A stretch of 35,337 bases of DNA from the NCBI GenBank assembly GCA_031281195.1, contig JAITFS010000179.1:1-35337 (forward strand), read 5' to 3'. Shown piece after piece: positions 22,153 to 30,864 of this stretch. The first letter of the stretch is position 1; each line of letters begins with the position of its first letter. The notes below the pieces were generated by a model that ran no database searches, was not told the DNA's origin, and worked only from the letters and a program-made list of their open reading frames with translations. The position numbers and the translations under genes are program-made. Origin of the DNA: Oscillospiraceae bacterium (GTDB lineage: Bacteria > Bacillota > Clostridia > Oscillospirales > Oscillospiraceae).

Positions 22153-24135
22153 ATGAAACTTTTTAGCAAACAAGGTAAACGCAGCATATCTTCAACAAAA
22201 CCACAGAAAACAAGAATAGTTAAAGATGTACCATCCTCTGATGTAACTACTTTAAACGAGAATATTGCAGTTGCTGTTTCATTAGAGCCTGAATTAAAGT
22301 CTGTTGAACCTGTACCTGTTATAACGCAACAAGTTGAGGTTGTAGTTTCTGAAGCAGTTGAACCTGTTGTAGTTGAACAACCTGCTGTTGCTGTGCCGCA
22401 AAATATTGTTCAACCTGTAGAATCTCAGAGTAAATACATTGTAAATTATCCTGATGTAGAGTTATCTGAAGCATCAAAGCGTGCAATTGAAACTGTTATA
22501 CACAAAGAGAATATTCTTGACGACAATCTTTATATTACGCAAGAGATTGTGCTAGACAGCACTTTTGAACACCTTGCTCCACCAAAGAAATCACCATTAA
22601 AGATTATTGGAATAATCCTTTTATGTATGATAGCCCTTGGTGCTATTAGTGCCGGCGGTTGGTATTATTGGATGGTTAGCCATGCTGCTTTTGATTTTAC
22701 ATTACAACCAATAGTTATTTTAAATGGAGAATCAATATTAGCTAGCGATTTTCTGTTAGATTCTGAGGATTTATCATCAACATCAGTTAGATTTTTAGAC
22801 CCTGATTATTACCCTGTCGAAGGACGCCATGAAGTGCCGATAATACTTTCAATGGGTTTACGTTCTGTTGAAACATGGGGAATTGTATATGTACTAAAGC
22901 CTATAAGTGGTATAACAGCCGAGTTCAGAGATGATCTATCCGGCTTGGTTGCTTCTGATTTTCTTGCAAATGCAAGCATTGCCAGAGGTGTTGAGTTTGA
23001 TGTCCGTTTTATTGAAGAGCCTTTACCTCTGGCTGAATATGATGTTGGTGAGTATATTTTGCACTTGTCATTAAATGGTGCTCCTTTTAGTGTGACATTA
23101 ACCATTGAAGACACAACACCTCCAACTGCAACACCTATAAGTGTACACAATCATATAATTGGTGAACCTATCACACCTGATGCTTTTCTGGTTGGAGTGT
23201 ATGACCCTTCGGGTGTTGTTTCCATTGAATTTGTAACAGAACCTGATGTTTTTGATAGAGAAGGACGTAATCAAATCGTTGAGATTATTGTGACTGATAC
23301 ATGGGGTAATAGTGAGGTTTTTCGCTCGGATTTAACAATATTAATGAATGAAACACCTCCGGTTCTTGAAGGTCCGACTCTCATTGAGAGTAAGGTCGGA
23401 AATCCTGTAATGTTTTTAAATGGTGTAACAGCGTTTGATAGCTTTGGAAGAGAGTTAGAGCTTGTTGTTGATTTATTAGGCTTCGACCAGGATATTGTTG
23501 GTGAATACAGCATTTTTATTTCTACCATTGACTTGACCGGGAATATTTCAAATATTGAAGTAATTATACGCATTATAGAGGTTGATCCTGATGAAGTTTA
23601 TGAGCTTGTAGATGCTGCACTTGAGAATGCTTATAGGGAGTTTTTACGTGGTGGTGGAGCTATGTCGCAAGAAGCACTAGATGCAGCAGTTGCAAATATG
23701 ACTCAAGTAGAACAAGCTCGTGCGATAATCATTGAGATAAGGCGACTTATAAGATATGCTGATACTCGTGGCGGTCCTCAGTCTATATATGAAGCTGCAT
23801 ACTCAGGTTTACGTGAGCGTAGTGGAAATTGTTTTAACTATTACGCACTTGGTGAACTTATGTTGACAAGAGCAGGTATTCCCAATATGATGATTGAACG
23901 CAGACGTGATATTGGTCATGGTACAAACCACAGATGGAGCTTAATAAACCCTGATAATGCCGGTTGGCATCACTTCGATTCTGTGCCTACAAGATACCTT
24001 GATTTAAACACTATTATGCATGCGATGACACAATCGCAAACAAAATTAATTGAAAATGCTCCTGTTATTTTTGAAAACCACGGTGGTTTGTTCTACGCTT
24101 TTGACCCATCGTTATACCCGGATATAGTACCGTAA
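22153..24135 (+). CDS. Membrane-anchored transglutaminase-like protein with Ig-like domains
   Basis: A protein of 660 aa with type II topology: a cytoplasmic Val/Pro/Glu-rich N-terminus (about 1-148), a single membrane helix (149-172), then an extracellular part. Residues about 318-475 contain two Ig-like repeats of the DUF5011 type, with the DTTPPTATPISVHNHIIGEP and NETPPVLEGPTLI starts. The C-terminal ~100 residues form a transglutaminase-like domain with a full Cys-His-Asp set: SGNCFNYYALG (C560), TNHRWSL (H593) and WHHFDS (D609). Such domains can be proteases, peptide ligases or amidases, so the activity is not defined. AGGAG lies 12 nt before the ATG. It sits inside the Dlt-like operon and would face the cell wall, so it may act on the same surface polymer or on proteins there. 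Confidence 0.88.
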   Translation: MKLFSKQGKRSISSTKPQKTRIVKDVPSSDVTTLNENIAVAVSLEPELKSVEPVPVITQQVEVVVSEAVEPVVVEQPAVAVPQNIVQPVESQSKYIVNYPDVELSEASKRAIETVIHKENILDDNLYITQEIVLDSTFEHLAPPKKSPLKIIGIILLCMIALGAISAGGWYYWMVSHAAFDFTLQPIVILNGESILASDFLLDSEDLSSTSVRFLDPDYYPVEGRHEVPIILSMGLRSVETWGIVYVLKPISGITAEFRDDLSGLVASDFLANASIARGVEFDVRFIEEPLPLAEYDVGEYILHLSLNGAPFSVTLTIEDTTPPTATPISVHNHIIGEPITPDAFLVGVYDPSGVVSIEFVTEPDVFDREGRNQIVEIIVTDTWGNSEVFRSDLTILMNETPPVLEGPTLIESKVGNPVMFLNGVTAFDSFGRELELVVDLLGFDQDIVGEYSIFISTIDLTGNISNIEVIIRIIEVDPDEVYELVDAALENAYREFLRGGGAMSQEALDAAVANMTQVEQARAIIIEIRRLIRYADTRGGPQSIYEAAYSGLRERSGNCFNYYALGELMLTRAGIPNMMIERRRDIGHGTNHRWSLINPDNAGWHHFDSVPTRYLDLNTIMHAMTQSQTKLIENAPVIFENHGGLFYAFDPSLYPDIVP

Positions 24136-24152
24136 TACAGTGAGGTGTATTT

Positions 24153-24875
24153 ATGAAGGATGTGCTTAATAATGACCCTGCGTTTCTCACATTAATACGT
24201 CAAGAGGATGGTTATTCCAGTTCCTTGCTTGGTGTAATTGGTGGTATGGGAACAAGAGCTACTACATATTTCCACGATAAGCTTCATAGCCTGCAAGAGA
24301 TTTCAAAGGAACAGGATTTCACGGATGTCCTTATCTATAGTGTGCCAACTACACCTGACCGTACTGCTTATATAACCGGAAAAAGTAAAAACAGTCCTTT
24401 ACCAAAACTGCTTGATGCTGCAAAAACTCTGGAAATAGCAGGTGCTACCAAGCTTGCTATGCTGTGTATTACCTCTCATTACTTTTATGATAAAATTGTT
24501 GAAACTGTAAATATACCATTCTTAAACATGCCCGATGAAGTAGCACGTTATGCTGCTGAGTGCAGATATACAAAGGTTGGTTTACTTGCTACATCCGGTA
24601 CTATTGATGGTAAGTTTTTCCATACAGCATTTAAAAACTTCGGCATAAATGTCCTTACTTTATCACCGGAGTTACAAGATGATTTAATGAAGCTCATATA
24701 TGATGTAAAGCTTGGTATTGATATTATGCCTTGTGCTTTAATCCCAATGGTTGCAGAGCTTGATGATAGAGGTGTAGATGCTGTAATTCTAGGTTGTACA
24801 GAGCTTTGCGTTATAGGTGACATAAACACAAATTGTATTAACTCTTTGGATGTTTTAGCAGGAGCTTGTATTTAA
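24153..24875 (+). CDS. Aspartate/glutamate racemase family protein
   Basis: A protein of 240 aa with the Asp/Glu/hydantoin racemase fold. The start segment LLGVIGGMGTRATTYF matches the family GGMGP.AT loop, and TTPDRTAYI matches the PDRT substrate loop of aspartate racemases. The two catalytic cysteines are present: C105 in MLCITSHYFYD (usual CNTAHYFYD, here Asn is Ile) and C215 in ILGCTELC. The expected reaction is PLP-independent interconversion of L- and D-aspartate, glutamate or a related amino acid in the cytoplasm; the Asn-to-Ile change in the first loop could shift specificity. GAGGTG precedes the ATG. It sits directly upstream of the adenylation gene (4-nt gap), suggesting it supplies the amino acid that enzyme activates. 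Confidence 0.88.
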   Translation: MKDVLNNDPAFLTLIRQEDGYSSSLLGVIGGMGTRATTYFHDKLHSLQEISKEQDFTDVLIYSVPTTPDRTAYITGKSKNSPLPKLLDAAKTLEIAGATKLAMLCITSHYFYDKIVETVNIPFLNMPDEVARYAAECRYTKVGLLATSGTIDGKFFHTAFKNFGINVLTLSPELQDDLMKLIYDVKLGIDIMPCALIPMVAELDDRGVDAVILGCTELCVIGDINTNCINSLDVLAGACI

Positions 24876-24879
24876 TATT

Positions 24880-26451
24880 ATGATTAATGTTTTAGATTAT
24901 TTGGAAAATACAATAAAAACTATGAGCAACCCCGATAAACCTGCATTTATCGGGGAAAAATCATCTCTATCTTTTAATGAGCTATATATGAGAAGTCTCT
25001 CTTGTGGTAGTTATATTGCTTCAAAAGAGTTACAAAAACAACCGATTGTTGTATTCATGCAAAAAACACCTGCTATAATTGCTGCTTTCCTTGGTGTTGT
25101 TTATAGTGGTAACTATTACGTACCAATAGATTCAGAGATTACAACACTTCGTATTCGAATGATTTTGGAAGAGGTAAAATCTCCGCTTATTATATGTGAT
25201 GAGGTAACATCGAAGCTCCTTGATAAATGGAGTTCTGAGCGTGATTTGGATTGGGATTATGACTATAGTACCGTGTTGTTTAGCGATGCCGGCAGTTTTC
25301 TGATTGATTATAACAAGCTTACAGCTATTCGTAAAAGCACCATTGATGTTGACCCGTTGTATGTGGTATTTACTTCCGGTTCAACCGGTACTCCAAAAGG
25401 TGTAATAGCAACGCACCGCTCCGTCATTGACTATATAGAGAATCTGTCCGAGGTTTTGGCATTAGATTCTGATACTGTTTTTGGAAATCAATCCCCACTT
25501 TATCTTGATGCTTGTTTGAAGGAGGTTTTCCCCACATTAAAGTTTGGTGCTACTACTTATCTTATACCACCTTCACTTTTTATGTTTCCTGTAAAACTAA
25601 TAGAATATATAAATGAGCATAAAATCAACACAATTTGCTGGGTAGCTTCTGCTCTAAGTATGGTTGCAGGTCTTGGTGCTTTTTCCGTTGCAACTCCAAA
25701 ATCACTTAAAACCATCGCATTTGGCAGTGAGATTTTCCCGGTAAGACATTTTAATTTATGGAGAGATGTTTTACCAGATACTCGTTTTATACACCTTTAT
25801 GGGCCTACAGAGGCAACCGGTATGTCGTGTTTTTATGAAGTTTCAAATTCTTATGATTATAGTGGTTCAATTCCGATTGGTTCTGCATTTCCAAACACTG
25901 AGATAATTTTGCTTGATGACAATAATAATTTACCTCCGGATGGAAAGCCCGGTGAAATCTGTATTCGTGGCGCAGGGCTTAGTCTTGGTTATTTTGGTGA
26001 TAATGAGAAAACGAACTCTGCTTTTGTGCAAAATCCGCTCTCGATTTTCCCTGATATTATTTATAGAACCGGTGATATGGGTTACTATGGTTCAATTGAT
26101 TTAGAGCAGGGTGATTCCAATGATGTTCAGAGGGTTCTTTTCTATAAGGGTCGTAGAGATCATCAAATTAAGCACATGGGTTATAGGATTGAGCTTGCTG
26201 AGATAGAGCTTATGGCTGCTAGTTTTGACGGGGTGGGGCTTGCATGTGCGGTTTTTGATAATGAAAATAGTAGGATAATTCTTTATTATATGAGTGATAG
26301 TGTTGATAAATCTGATGTTAAGGCTTTTCTTAAGGCTAATCTTCCTCGTTATATGCTACCTCAAACAATTATTCATTGCGATAATATGCCTAAAACCGCA
26401 GGTGGCAAAATCGACAGAGTAAAGCTACTGGAGTTAGGAAGCAGAAAGTAA
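24880..26451 (+). CDS. Stand-alone amino-acid adenylation enzyme, DltA-like
   Basis: AMP-binding enzyme of 523 aa, the size of DltA. Core motifs are A3 VFTSGSTGTPKG (163-174), A5 HLYGPTEATG (305-314), A7 YRTGDMG (395-401), A8 GRRDHQIKHMGYRIE (424-438) and A10 PKTAGGKIDR with Lys510. It should activate an amino acid as aminoacyl-AMP and load it on the carrier encoded next. Aligning by eye to GrsA, the first pocket positions are Asp210, Ala211 and Lys214. Asp210 fits an alpha-amino acid, and D-A-K is the start of a known glutamate code, but the remaining positions do not match that code. DltA's FCGE cysteine is absent (AFGSE here), so plain D-alanine is not assured. No condensation or thioesterase domain. 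It starts 4 nt after the racemase stop. Confidence 0.9.
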   Translation: MINVLDYLENTIKTMSNPDKPAFIGEKSSLSFNELYMRSLSCGSYIASKELQKQPIVVFMQKTPAIIAAFLGVVYSGNYYVPIDSEITTLRIRMILEEVKSPLIICDEVTSKLLDKWSSERDLDWDYDYSTVLFSDAGSFLIDYNKLTAIRKSTIDVDPLYVVFTSGSTGTPKGVIATHRSVIDYIENLSEVLALDSDTVFGNQSPLYLDACLKEVFPTLKFGATTYLIPPSLFMFPVKLIEYINEHKINTICWVASALSMVAGLGAFSVATPKSLKTIAFGSEIFPVRHFNLWRDVLPDTRFIHLYGPTEATGMSCFYEVSNSYDYSGSIPIGSAFPNTEIILLDDNNNLPPDGKPGEICIRGAGLSLGYFGDNEKTNSAFVQNPLSIFPDIIYRTGDMGYYGSIDLEQGDSNDVQRVLFYKGRRDHQIKHMGYRIELAEIELMAASFDGVGLACAVFDNENSRIILYYMSDSVDKSDVKAFLKANLPRYMLPQTIIHCDNMPKTAGGKIDRVKLLELGSRK

Positions 26452-26457
26452 AGAGCT

Positions 26458-26685
26458 ATGGAAAAACTATTAGAGATTTTACAGGAAATGCATGAGGATA
26501 TAGATTTTTCTACTCATGTTTCGCTTATTGATGATAAAGTCATCGATTCTTTTGATATTATCACTCTTATTGCAGAGATTGATGATAGAATTGGTGTAAC
26601 AATTCCTCCTGAAGAGCTTATTCCTAAAAACTTCAACTCATTCTCCGCAATGGTGAATCTTATAAATAAACTTGAGAATGAGTAA
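26458..26685 (+). CDS. Acyl/aminoacyl carrier protein, DltC-like
   Basis: A 75-residue, acidic, all-helical carrier protein. The phosphopantetheine-attachment serine lies in KVIDSFDIITLIAEID (Ser31), matching the D-S-[FL]-[DE] motif of DltC and ACP. Six nucleotides separate it from the adenylation gene, so it is almost surely the partner loaded by that enzyme and would present the aminoacyl thioester to the MBOAT protein. It is the last gene of the operon; a palindromic repeat follows directly. Confidence 0.9.
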   Translation: MEKLLEILQEMHEDIDFSTHVSLIDDKVIDSFDIITLIAEIDDRIGVTIPPEELIPKNFNSFSAMVNLINKLENE

Positions 26686-28543: not shown

Positions 28544-28870
28544 TTAGATTTTTATAAACTGGTCTATCGGCAGGACAAATACTGTTGCGCCACCGACTGT
28601 GACTTCAACAAGAGGTGCATTTATAAAGCCGCCAATAGCCGAGTTTGTAATTGATGGCATAGGCTGGCTGCGGCTTTTTGATTTATCACGAATGATGTCA
28701 ATGGCTTCATTGACTCTGTCATCGTCAACGCCAGTGATGATGGTGACGTTACCCGACATTAAAAATCCACCTGTTGTTGCAAGCTTTGTGATTGAGAATC
28801 CTGCTTGTGTCATGCTGCGTATGACTGACTGCGCGTCTTCACTGCTAACTATTGCCAGTACAAGCTTCAT
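28544..28870 (-). CDS. darA: Cyclic-di-AMP receptor, DarA/PstA family
   Basis: A PII-like protein of 108 aa (DUF970). The sequence matches DarA/PstA closely: MKLVLAIVSSEDAQSVI, the TTGGFLMSGNVTIITGVDDD block that forms the ligand pocket, and GGATVFVLPIDQF at the end. Family members are cytoplasmic trimers that bind c-di-AMP; their output target is not settled. A strong AGAGGAGG lies before the ATG. It follows the MATE gene by 43 nt on the same strand, so the two may be co-transcribed. Confidence 0.95.
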   Translation of the reverse strand: MKLVLAIVSSEDAQSVIRSMTQAGFSITKLATTGGFLMSGNVTIITGVDDDRVNEAIDIIRDKSKSRSQPMPSITNSAIGGFINAPLVEVTVGGATVFVLPIDQFIKI

Positions 28871-28913: not shown

Positions 28914-30665
28914 TTAAGTTTTCAATGCAACTACCAAACTGTTTATACCAAATGTCTCTTTATAATATACTTTTTTTGCTGATTCTGTTATATATTTTAT
29001 GCCTAAAACTTCAACGCTTTCGTCTATGTTTTCTGCTGTTTCCAGGCGTTGCTTGTAGTATTCGATTGGGTTAAAGCGTTTTCCTGAATTACGCAATCTT
29101 AATACAATATTCTCCTCAAACAAAGCAAGACGAACAGATACATCTCCTCCCTGTTCGTTGTTTTTTGTTATAAGAATAATCATTTCTTCTATAGCGAGAG
29201 CCAAGAGTAGTGTTTTCTTTTTATCCATTTTTTGTTGATTACAAAAAGTCTCCACAGCGGCTGATGCTTTACCTGCTTCATTTGAATCCCGGGCAACTGA
29301 AAATGAAAGAACTGCATCTTTTGTTTCGGTTGTATCAAGTAATAATGGAAATGACAGGTTTTTATTCTTTTTTCGTACAAACATTAGTATTAAAGGTAGA
29401 ATGATTAAAATTAAAGCCATTCCAATCGGCATGTATAACCAAAATACATCAACAAATAAAATAGCAAATATTGTCACTGATATAAGTGGAAGAATTAAAT
29501 CCTGACATAATACAAGTATGTTTGCGAGTTTTATAAAACGAAATGCTGTGTACCATGAGATAAAAAGTGAGCTGATAACATATATAAACGAGTAAATACA
29601 AAAGCATACTAATGCAAATAAAATACTGTCGGTAACTCCAAAAATACCTGCTACAAATCTATTAAAAACTAATAGTAATATTGTTGCAATTATCATAAAA
29701 ATACTACAAAAACGAAACATTTCCCGTGAGAGCTGACGTAGACTAATAATGTCTCGTTCTTCGTGTAAAATACTTGAAATTGGTATCTGTACTCCTGAAA
29801 TCCCGTTTGCAAGAGCAATAACAAAACGTTGTAACATGTTCAAAATGCTAAATATTGCAATTGCAGCTACTCCAACAAAGTTTAGCAATATTATGTTAAT
29901 AACAAACATTGCTGCAAAACGAAATAGTCTTACAAATGCCGGAGGGCTGCCTATTGATAAAACAGGTAATAAATCTTTACCAAAATTACGTGGAATACGC
30001 AATTTCATGCGATTTTTTGTGGTGTGAATCATAATAAAACCTAAAATTGTTGAAACCACCGCAGAGATTAACTGAGAAATAGCAAGTGCAATAATACCCA
30101 TGTTTAACACATATATAAATAACAGGACTAATACTACACTCATAATTGATTGAATAGTATTAAATATCAAAACAACCGGTGTTCTTCCTATTAACCTTGC
30201 CCAATACATAGGTACATATATTGTTATTATAATGCAGTTTGCAAGTATTATAGGTAAAAATAATAGTGAAGCATACCTGTATAACTCACCACTTCCGGCT
30301 ATCACTGACAATATCGTTTCTCTGAAAATCATACTCAAGATAAAAAGAGTTGTTGCACACAGTGTAGTTAAGATAATTGATAAAGTGTAGAGCTCATAAA
30401 CACGATTGTCATCATCTGCCGCTATATATTTTGCAGCAGTTGATGCTGCACCACTTGCTATTACCGTGCCAAAAAAACCTGTTAAAAAGAAAAATGGTGC
30501 AAATATACCAACAACTGCCAGACCAACCTCACCTAACACTAAACCGGCTACAGCTCCGCATACAATCGGTGCAACATGCGCAACAGATAATGCTGATACA
30601 CTGTAGACAGCATTTTTAAGAAAAACTTTTTTTACTAGCCCGCTATTATCTTCGTATAAATTCAT
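28914..30665 (-). CDS. MATE-family transporter fused to an RsbW-like ATPase domain
   Basis: A protein of about 583 aa. Residues about 1-450 form a MATE/polysaccharide-flippase type transporter with about 12 hydrophobic helices in two halves (start KNAVYSVSALSVAHVAPIVCG). A further ~130 residues follow, facing the cytoplasm: TLLLALAIEEMIILITKNN takes the place of the RsbW-type N-box helix, VLRLRNSGKRFNPIEYY resembles the G1 box, and GIKYITESAKKVYYKETFG resembles the C-terminal part of anti-sigma-factor kinases. The N-box Asn and G1 glycine pattern are degenerate, so ATP binding is uncertain. The start is ATG 30665; the longer track ORF (30803) runs through an inverted repeat. It lies upstream of darA. 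The cargo is unknown. Confidence 0.85.
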   Translation of the reverse strand: MNLYEDNSGLVKKVFLKNAVYSVSALSVAHVAPIVCGAVAGLVLGEVGLAVVGIFAPFFFLTGFFGTVIASGAASTAAKYIAADDDNRVYELYTLSIILTTLCATTLFILSMIFRETILSVIAGSGELYRYASLLFLPIILANCIIITIYVPMYWARLIGRTPVVLIFNTIQSIMSVVLVLLFIYVLNMGIIALAISQLISAVVSTILGFIMIHTTKNRMKLRIPRNFGKDLLPVLSIGSPPAFVRLFRFAAMFVINIILLNFVGVAAIAIFSILNMLQRFVIALANGISGVQIPISSILHEERDIISLRQLSREMFRFCSIFMIIATILLLVFNRFVAGIFGVTDSILFALVCFCIYSFIYVISSLFISWYTAFRFIKLANILVLCQDLILPLISVTIFAILFVDVFWLYMPIGMALILIILPLILMFVRKKNKNLSFPLLLDTTETKDAVLSFSVARDSNEAGKASAAVETFCNQQKMDKKKTLLLALAIEEMIILITKNNEQGGDVSVRLALFEENIVLRLRNSGKRFNPIEYYKQRLETAENIDESVEVLGIKYITESAKKVYYKETFGINSLVVALKT

Positions 30666-30705: not shown

Positions 30706-30733
30706 AGTATATCATATAAACATATATTAGTAA
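30706..30733 (-). promoter_or_regulatory. Candidate promoter for the MATE-darA genes
   Basis: On the minus strand TTACTA, a 16-nt spacer and TATACT, about 41 nt before the ATG. The -35 is imperfect. Confidence 0.45.
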
Positions 30734-30734
30734 T

Positions 30735-30840
30735 AATATTTCTATAATAGTCTCTTTTCCGAAACGCTGAGCCTCCATGCTCAGAGTTTCGGCGCTCCGC
30801 CATCCTTGGCTTCGCTTTCCGAGACCATTATAAGAATATT
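30735..30840. repeat. 106-bp inverted-repeat element between divergent genes
   Basis: Outer arms of 20 nt (AATATTTCTATAATAGTCTC, and its inverted copy at 30821-30840) match at 17 positions. Inside lies a strong hairpin CCGAAAC-G-CTGAGC-CTCCAT-GCTCAG-A-GTTTCGG (30759-30792). No coding potential. It is placed between the MATE and VanY promoters and looks like a small non-autonomous palindromic element. Confidence 0.75.
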
Positions 30841-30864
30841 AATACATGAGACATTGGGATATGC

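Follow-up and report, generated by a model that had tools for sequence, protein, structure and literature searches.

What does a fold best known from the control of sigma factors do at the end of a membrane transporter? The question is raised by a gene on the minus strand of a 35,337-nucleotide stretch of DNA from an Oscillospiraceae bacterium (contig JAITFS010000179.1 of assembly GCA_031281195.1; the whole stretch is referred to here as the window). The gene product joins a MATE-type transporter to a C-terminal domain resembling RsbW and SpoIIAB, and darA, which encodes a c-di-AMP receptor, follows it on the same strand. A preliminary description of the locus had suggested that the added domain could regulate transport by a nucleotide or a partner protein, or couple the membrane to a partner-switching module, and had drawn attention to darA. 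We compared the protein, its relatives and their gene neighbourhoods (Table 1).

Table 1 Features of the fusion gene and its surroundings in the window
Feature	Residues	Position	Strand	Basis or remark
MATE-HATPase fusion gene		28914..30665	-	583 aa
MATE transporter part	8-438	29352..30644	-	Pfam MatE, AlphaFold model, MATE structures in PDB
C-terminal RsbW/SpoIIAB-fold domain	450-583 (fold about 452-582)	28917..29318	-	Profiles, AlphaFold, Foldseek
Degenerate N-box, EEMIIL	493-498	29172..29189	-	Glu pair kept, Asn replaced by Leu498
Degenerate G1 box, RLRNSG	523-528	29082..29099	-	Asp replaced by Asn526
Degenerate G2 box	553-555	29001..29009	-	VLG in place of GLG
darA, c-di-AMP receptor gene		28544..28870	-	CdAMP_rec, 119.6 bits
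Palindromic MITE-like repeat		30730-30843	-	Just 5' of the fusion gene; 24 full or partial genome copies

The transporter and its C-terminal domain

The open frame extends from 30803 to 28914, and the ATG at 30665 is the likely start because a sibling protein (L052) has the same start, MNL-EDNSG. The Pfam MatE profile matches residues 34-179 with 46 bits, above its cut-off of 24.9, and a PDB sequence search with the window protein retrieves MATE structures; the score against TIGR00797 is 60.4 bits, below the cut-off of 147.4. Judged by these comparisons, the transporter is a divergent member of the MATE family, and cation-coupled substrate export is predicted from that membership. The AlphaFold model of the full-length protein (pLDDT 88.9) shows transmembrane helices followed by a domain with the RsbW/SpoIIAB fold, so the fusion claimed earlier is borne out by both the MatE match and the predicted structure.

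Sequence profiles recognise the C-terminal domain less readily. The full-length protein gives a weak, sub-threshold match to HATPase_c_2 (E 0.0026, residues 463-546), and the tail alone scores 22.4 bits, short of the 27.4-bit cut-off; the expected profile match is present, then, but stays below the level at which Pfam would assign the family. Because of this low score, automatic annotation would probably label the gene a plain MATE transporter. An iterated profile seeded by the RsbW-like kinase of a relative matches the window protein with an E-value of 1.3e-32, the profile having absorbed other transporter tails during iteration, and PF13581 was matched by each of 16 MATE C-terminal domains scanned singly (best E 6.8e-14). 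When the PDB was searched with a profile built solely from transporter tails, the matches were weak (RsbW E 0.0046, SpoIIAB 0.02), and the assignment therefore rests on Pfam, the kinase-seeded profile and structure. For the C-terminal 140 residues, supplied together with 21 relatives, AlphaFold gave a pLDDT of 91.6 and the order beta-alpha-alpha-beta-beta-alpha-alpha-alpha-beta-beta. When this model was compared with the PDB by Foldseek, SpoIIAB was the top match (1TIL, E 1.2e-7, TM 0.71), followed by UsfX and RsbW, and many of the matched structures are complexes with a STAS or sigma partner. The predicted RsbW/SpoIIAB fold of the tail is secure, despite the weak Pfam score. We rejected the possibility of a chance or decaying tail on the basis of the fold, the wide conservation described below and the comparison with the sibling protein, in which identity is higher across the C-terminal domain (53%) than across the transporter part (45%).

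In SpoIIAB, the N-box Asn and the G1 Asp hold Mg and adenine. Neither residue is present in the window tail, nor is the GLG of the G2 box (Table 1), confirming the degeneracy of the ATP-binding motifs noted previously; the tail is therefore not classed as a kinase of the RsbW/SpoIIAB type. The N-box Asn is missing in all 12 tails of the window's clade and the G1 Asp in 11 of them, L052 being its sole keeper, and for this reason regulation by a bound nucleotide, one of the earlier suggestions, is unlikely for the window copy. The Glu before the N-box is retained in 53 of 54 fusion tails. Asn, Asp and GLG are all kept in 16/16 separate or SpoIIE-fused kinase domains at the fusion loci.

Distribution and gene neighbourhoods of the fusion

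Among 201 same-family genomes, whole-length matches to the protein occur frequently, and 43 proteins matched in this way, the window protein included, formed the first alignment. The fusion is found in at least nine other genomes among 399 surveyed across the phylum, and the final analysis set comprised 54 fusions from about 40 genomes. When named genomes were scanned with a tight subgroup, 198 places were confirmed; the 80 retained are mostly from rumen and gut Clostridia MAGs (labelled Oscillospiraceae, Ruminococcaceae and Lachnospiraceae), and they include an isolate, Ruminococcus sp. FC2018, which carries the fusion L185. A scan of genome contigs with a single protein as query gave no match, nor did a search of plasmids. 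In a tree of the MATE part, one branch separates all 54 fusions from 20 plain MATE proteins (90/84 support), so that the fusions may have a single origin, and the window protein falls in a clade of 12 fusions in four families (100/99 support). The fusion is thus a large, conserved family and not a one-off of this genome, as the preliminary description had left to be checked. Judged by the open literature, the fusion is undescribed: searches of open-licence papers for it or for its domain pair retrieved no account.

The relatives of the window gene are accompanied by partner-switching genes. In the sibling genome G008, genes that touch or are closely spaced encode, in order, a STAS protein, an RsbW-like kinase, the MATE-tail fusion, a GNAT protein and a dCache-HAMP-SpoIIE phosphatase. 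Within 6 kb, a SpoIIE gene lies near 28 of the 54 fusions, compared with 2.5% expected from 135 SpoIIE matches in 84 Mb (binomial p about 1e-30, a value that overstates the certainty, the loci being related). STAS genes lie within the same distance of 25/54 fusions and intact kinase domains of 21/54; SpoIIE or STAS is found near 34/54, and about 20/54 have no partner gene in this range, some on short contigs. A SpoIIE or STAS gene also lies near each of the 11 fusions from outside the family, and 43 of 80 further named loci have partner-switch genes nearby. Within the window's clade, SpoIIE lies within 6 kb in 11/11 other members, with STAS and kinase beside most; by Pfam, the 64 clade neighbours include 11 SpoIIE, 9 dCache, 9 HAMP, 9 HATPase_c_2, 8 STAS, 3 Acetyltransf_1 and 2 GH3 domains. 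The SpoIIE phosphatase beside the relatives usually carries a dCache-HAMP sensor part, and the SSAG phospho-serine motif is present in 27 of 28 neighbouring STAS proteins. No sigma factor occurs among the 25 Pfam families matched by at least two of the 64 clade neighbours (40 single-member families aside). The operon context of the relatives thus supports the suggested coupling of the membrane protein to a partner-switching module.

The position of darA tells a different story. As first described, the gene begins 43 nt after the stop codon of the fusion, and it encodes a genuine CdAMP_rec protein. The spacing, the shared strand and the lack of a terminator-like site between the two genes on that strand would fit a fusion that works with DarA in c-di-AMP signalling. 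However, the adjacency was seen in the window genome only: darA is absent from 40 same-family fusion neighbourhoods checked, lies away from the fusion in G008 and G050, and in the same-genus genome G177 (74% identical darA) adjoins homologues of window genes at a place with no transporter. The proposed c-di-AMP link is therefore not supported, and we regard joint function with DarA as extremely improbable; darA is an incidental neighbour, placed by chance outside the conserved system.

In the window itself, no partner gene adjoins the fusion. Elsewhere in the same assembly, which is 76% complete in 250 contigs, genes for an intact kinase (C127), for a dCache-HAMP-SpoIIE phosphatase (C165) and for STAS proteins (C120, C49) each stand alone, with phosphatase, STAS and kinase on separate contigs. 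Searched against G008, the kinase and the phosphatase have their best matches in the G008 cassette, and of the STAS proteins compared, that of G008 gives the C120 STAS protein its highest score; a kinase in G177, the other genome of the genus in which the kinase has a match, is equally close (52%). The cassette GNAT gene was not found in this 76% complete assembly. Because the close partner matches lie on separate contigs, the operon appears to have been broken up and dispersed in the window species. The repeat upstream of the fusion has inverted ends of about 24 bp and a predicted hairpin of -46.7 kcal/mol (z -7.6). An upstream riboswitch was considered for this hairpin and rejected, as it has no Rfam match and belongs to the repeat. 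Copies of the repeat adjoin the C49 STAS gene and also lie within 1 kb of the C120 STAS gene and a HATPase gene on C168; given these positions near fusion, STAS and HATPase genes, recombination between copies could have scattered the cassette.

A candidate partner switch acting on an exporter

We consider it moderately probable, from gene content and motif conservation, that the window protein is acted on by a partner-switching module that controls transport instead of transcription. A separate, intact kinase would maintain phosphate on the conserved serine of the STAS protein. On binding of an extracellular ligand, the sensor phosphatase would become active and dephosphorylate the STAS protein, which would then leave the intact kinase and bind the kinase-dead tail of the exporter, a putative STAS-docking domain. 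Docking is predicted to change the activity or assembly of the exporter, opening or blocking export, and the sensor phosphatase would thus gate the exporter post-translationally. In the window species, where the operon seems to have been split up, the switch would act in trans. The kinase-dead tail beside an intact kinase would represent a clear and testable division of labour. Weighing against this reading are the scattering of the partner genes over separate contigs in the window genome, the GNAT gene missing from its 76% complete assembly, and the roughly 20 of 54 fusions that lack a partner gene within 6 kb.

Other roles for the tail can be weighed against the same data. RsbW and SpoIIAB act as dimers, and the tail might accordingly serve as a dimerisation anchor that pairs with the intact RsbW-like kinase and recruits it to the membrane, leaving the transporter as scaffold or sensor and the output elsewhere, for example at an unlinked sigma factor. 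The intact kinase domains near 21 of the fusions are consistent with such pairing, but many fusions lack a separate kinase nearby and no sigma factor recurs among the neighbour families, which makes the anchor rather unlikely. The direction of signalling could also be reversed, with transport or substrate occupancy altering the tail, which would titrate STAS and report flux to the switch. The gene association is the same in this case, and a STAS-binding fold on a membrane protein could signal either way; the cassettes, however, already hold a dedicated dCache-HAMP sensor phosphatase, and we judge a sensing transporter to be unlikely.

A role as an active serine kinase, or as a nucleotide sensor adjusting transport to the ATP/ADP level, draws on the 22 of 54 fusions, all in clades other than the window's, that keep both the N-box Asn and the G1 Asp. 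The loss of the Asn throughout the window's clade and the small number of fusions with an intact GLG box render this role very unlikely. Motif loss had no significant link with proximity to STAS or SpoIIE (Asn kept in 11/34 fusions near these genes and 11/20 of the others, p 0.15). The motif is kept in 4/21 fusions with an intact kinase within 6 kb as against 18/33 without (p 0.012, the related loci not being independent), a suggestive link between motif loss and a nearby intact kinase.

Known systems and the wider pattern

The closest known counterparts of the module are the RsbU-RsbV-RsbW (sigma B) and SpoIIE-SpoIIAA-SpoIIAB (sigma F) switches of Bacillus, which share the SpoIIE-type phosphatase, the phospho-serine STAS protein, the RsbW-fold kinase and the fold of the tail. 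The fusion cassettes differ from these in that the kinase fold is duplicated, with one copy placed on an exporter and lacking the ATP-binding residues, and in that no sigma factor recurs. The transporter part resembles exporters of the NorM/DinF type (PDB 3VVN, 4LZ6), to which the fusion adds about 140 cytoplasmic residues with a regulatory fold, its TIGR00797 score remaining below the cut-off. SypE-SypA of Vibrio fischeri and BtrU-BtrV-BtrW of Bordetella have outputs other than a classical sigma factor, and neither is known to have a transporter-fused RsbW fold as its target. STAS phosphorylation cycles with such outputs are described for SypA and BtrV (PMC8256260). Precedents for the action of a STAS fold on a transporter are MlaB-MlaF, in which a STAS protein is bound to an ABC transporter (PMC7367683), and the SLC26/SulP transporters, in which the STAS domain is part of the transporter (PMC8256260); MlaB binds the ABC ATPase and the SLC26/SulP domain is fused, and neither system includes an RsbW-like tail or a SpoIIE phosphatase. 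The fusion system is thus likely to be partner switching that is known in its parts, with the transporter as a new target.

Further gene arrangements were observed at the fusion loci. Beside some fusions, STAS is joined to an NRPS-type Condensation domain (L126, 5787-7391; L129, 9541-11145; L124, 2355-3947), and L124 also encodes an A-PCP-C (NRPS) protein. STAS-APH-HATPase and STAS-APH proteins, in which an APH-type phosphotransferase is framed by partner-switch domains, lie near others (L062, 6590-8137; L040, 12347-13900; L064, 14094-15278), and some loci contain GH3 enzymes, a formyltransferase or a lysyl-PG-synthase-like protein. As STAS fusions, NRPS, GH3 and related genes lie at the fusion loci, this content hints that the exporter may release small molecules synthesised next to it. 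Also seen were symporters of the SDF (sodium:dicarboxylate) type that carry about 130 additional N-terminal residues (L046, 11673-13265; L068, 6623-8218), and this extension in the L046 protein weakly matches an RsbW-like profile (E 2e-4); these symporters are perhaps a second transporter family given an RsbW-like domain. In the window, a plus-strand gene row at 22153-26685 encodes a transglutaminase-like membrane protein, an Asp/Glu racemase, a DltA/NRPS-like adenylation enzyme and a 75-aa carrier-like protein, and may make a small activated amino-acid product.

A broader proposal, which we put forward as doubtful, is that gut Clostridia use partner-switching parts as reversible docking domains, controlled by phosphorylation, to assemble a unit for synthesis and export. 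While the membrane sensor phosphatase is active, the STAS protein, which at some loci is part of a fusion with an NRPS-type condensation enzyme or with an APH-type phosphotransferase, would dock on the exporter's RsbW-like tail, and a small molecule would be made and exported on demand at the membrane, with no sigma factor involved. If transport is indeed the output of the switch, partner switching, the textbook mode of sigma-factor control, would also provide direct, fast and post-translational control of transport, and the neighbouring acyltransferases, GH3 enzymes and NRPS parts suggest that rumen and gut Clostridia may use it for the regulated export of small molecules.
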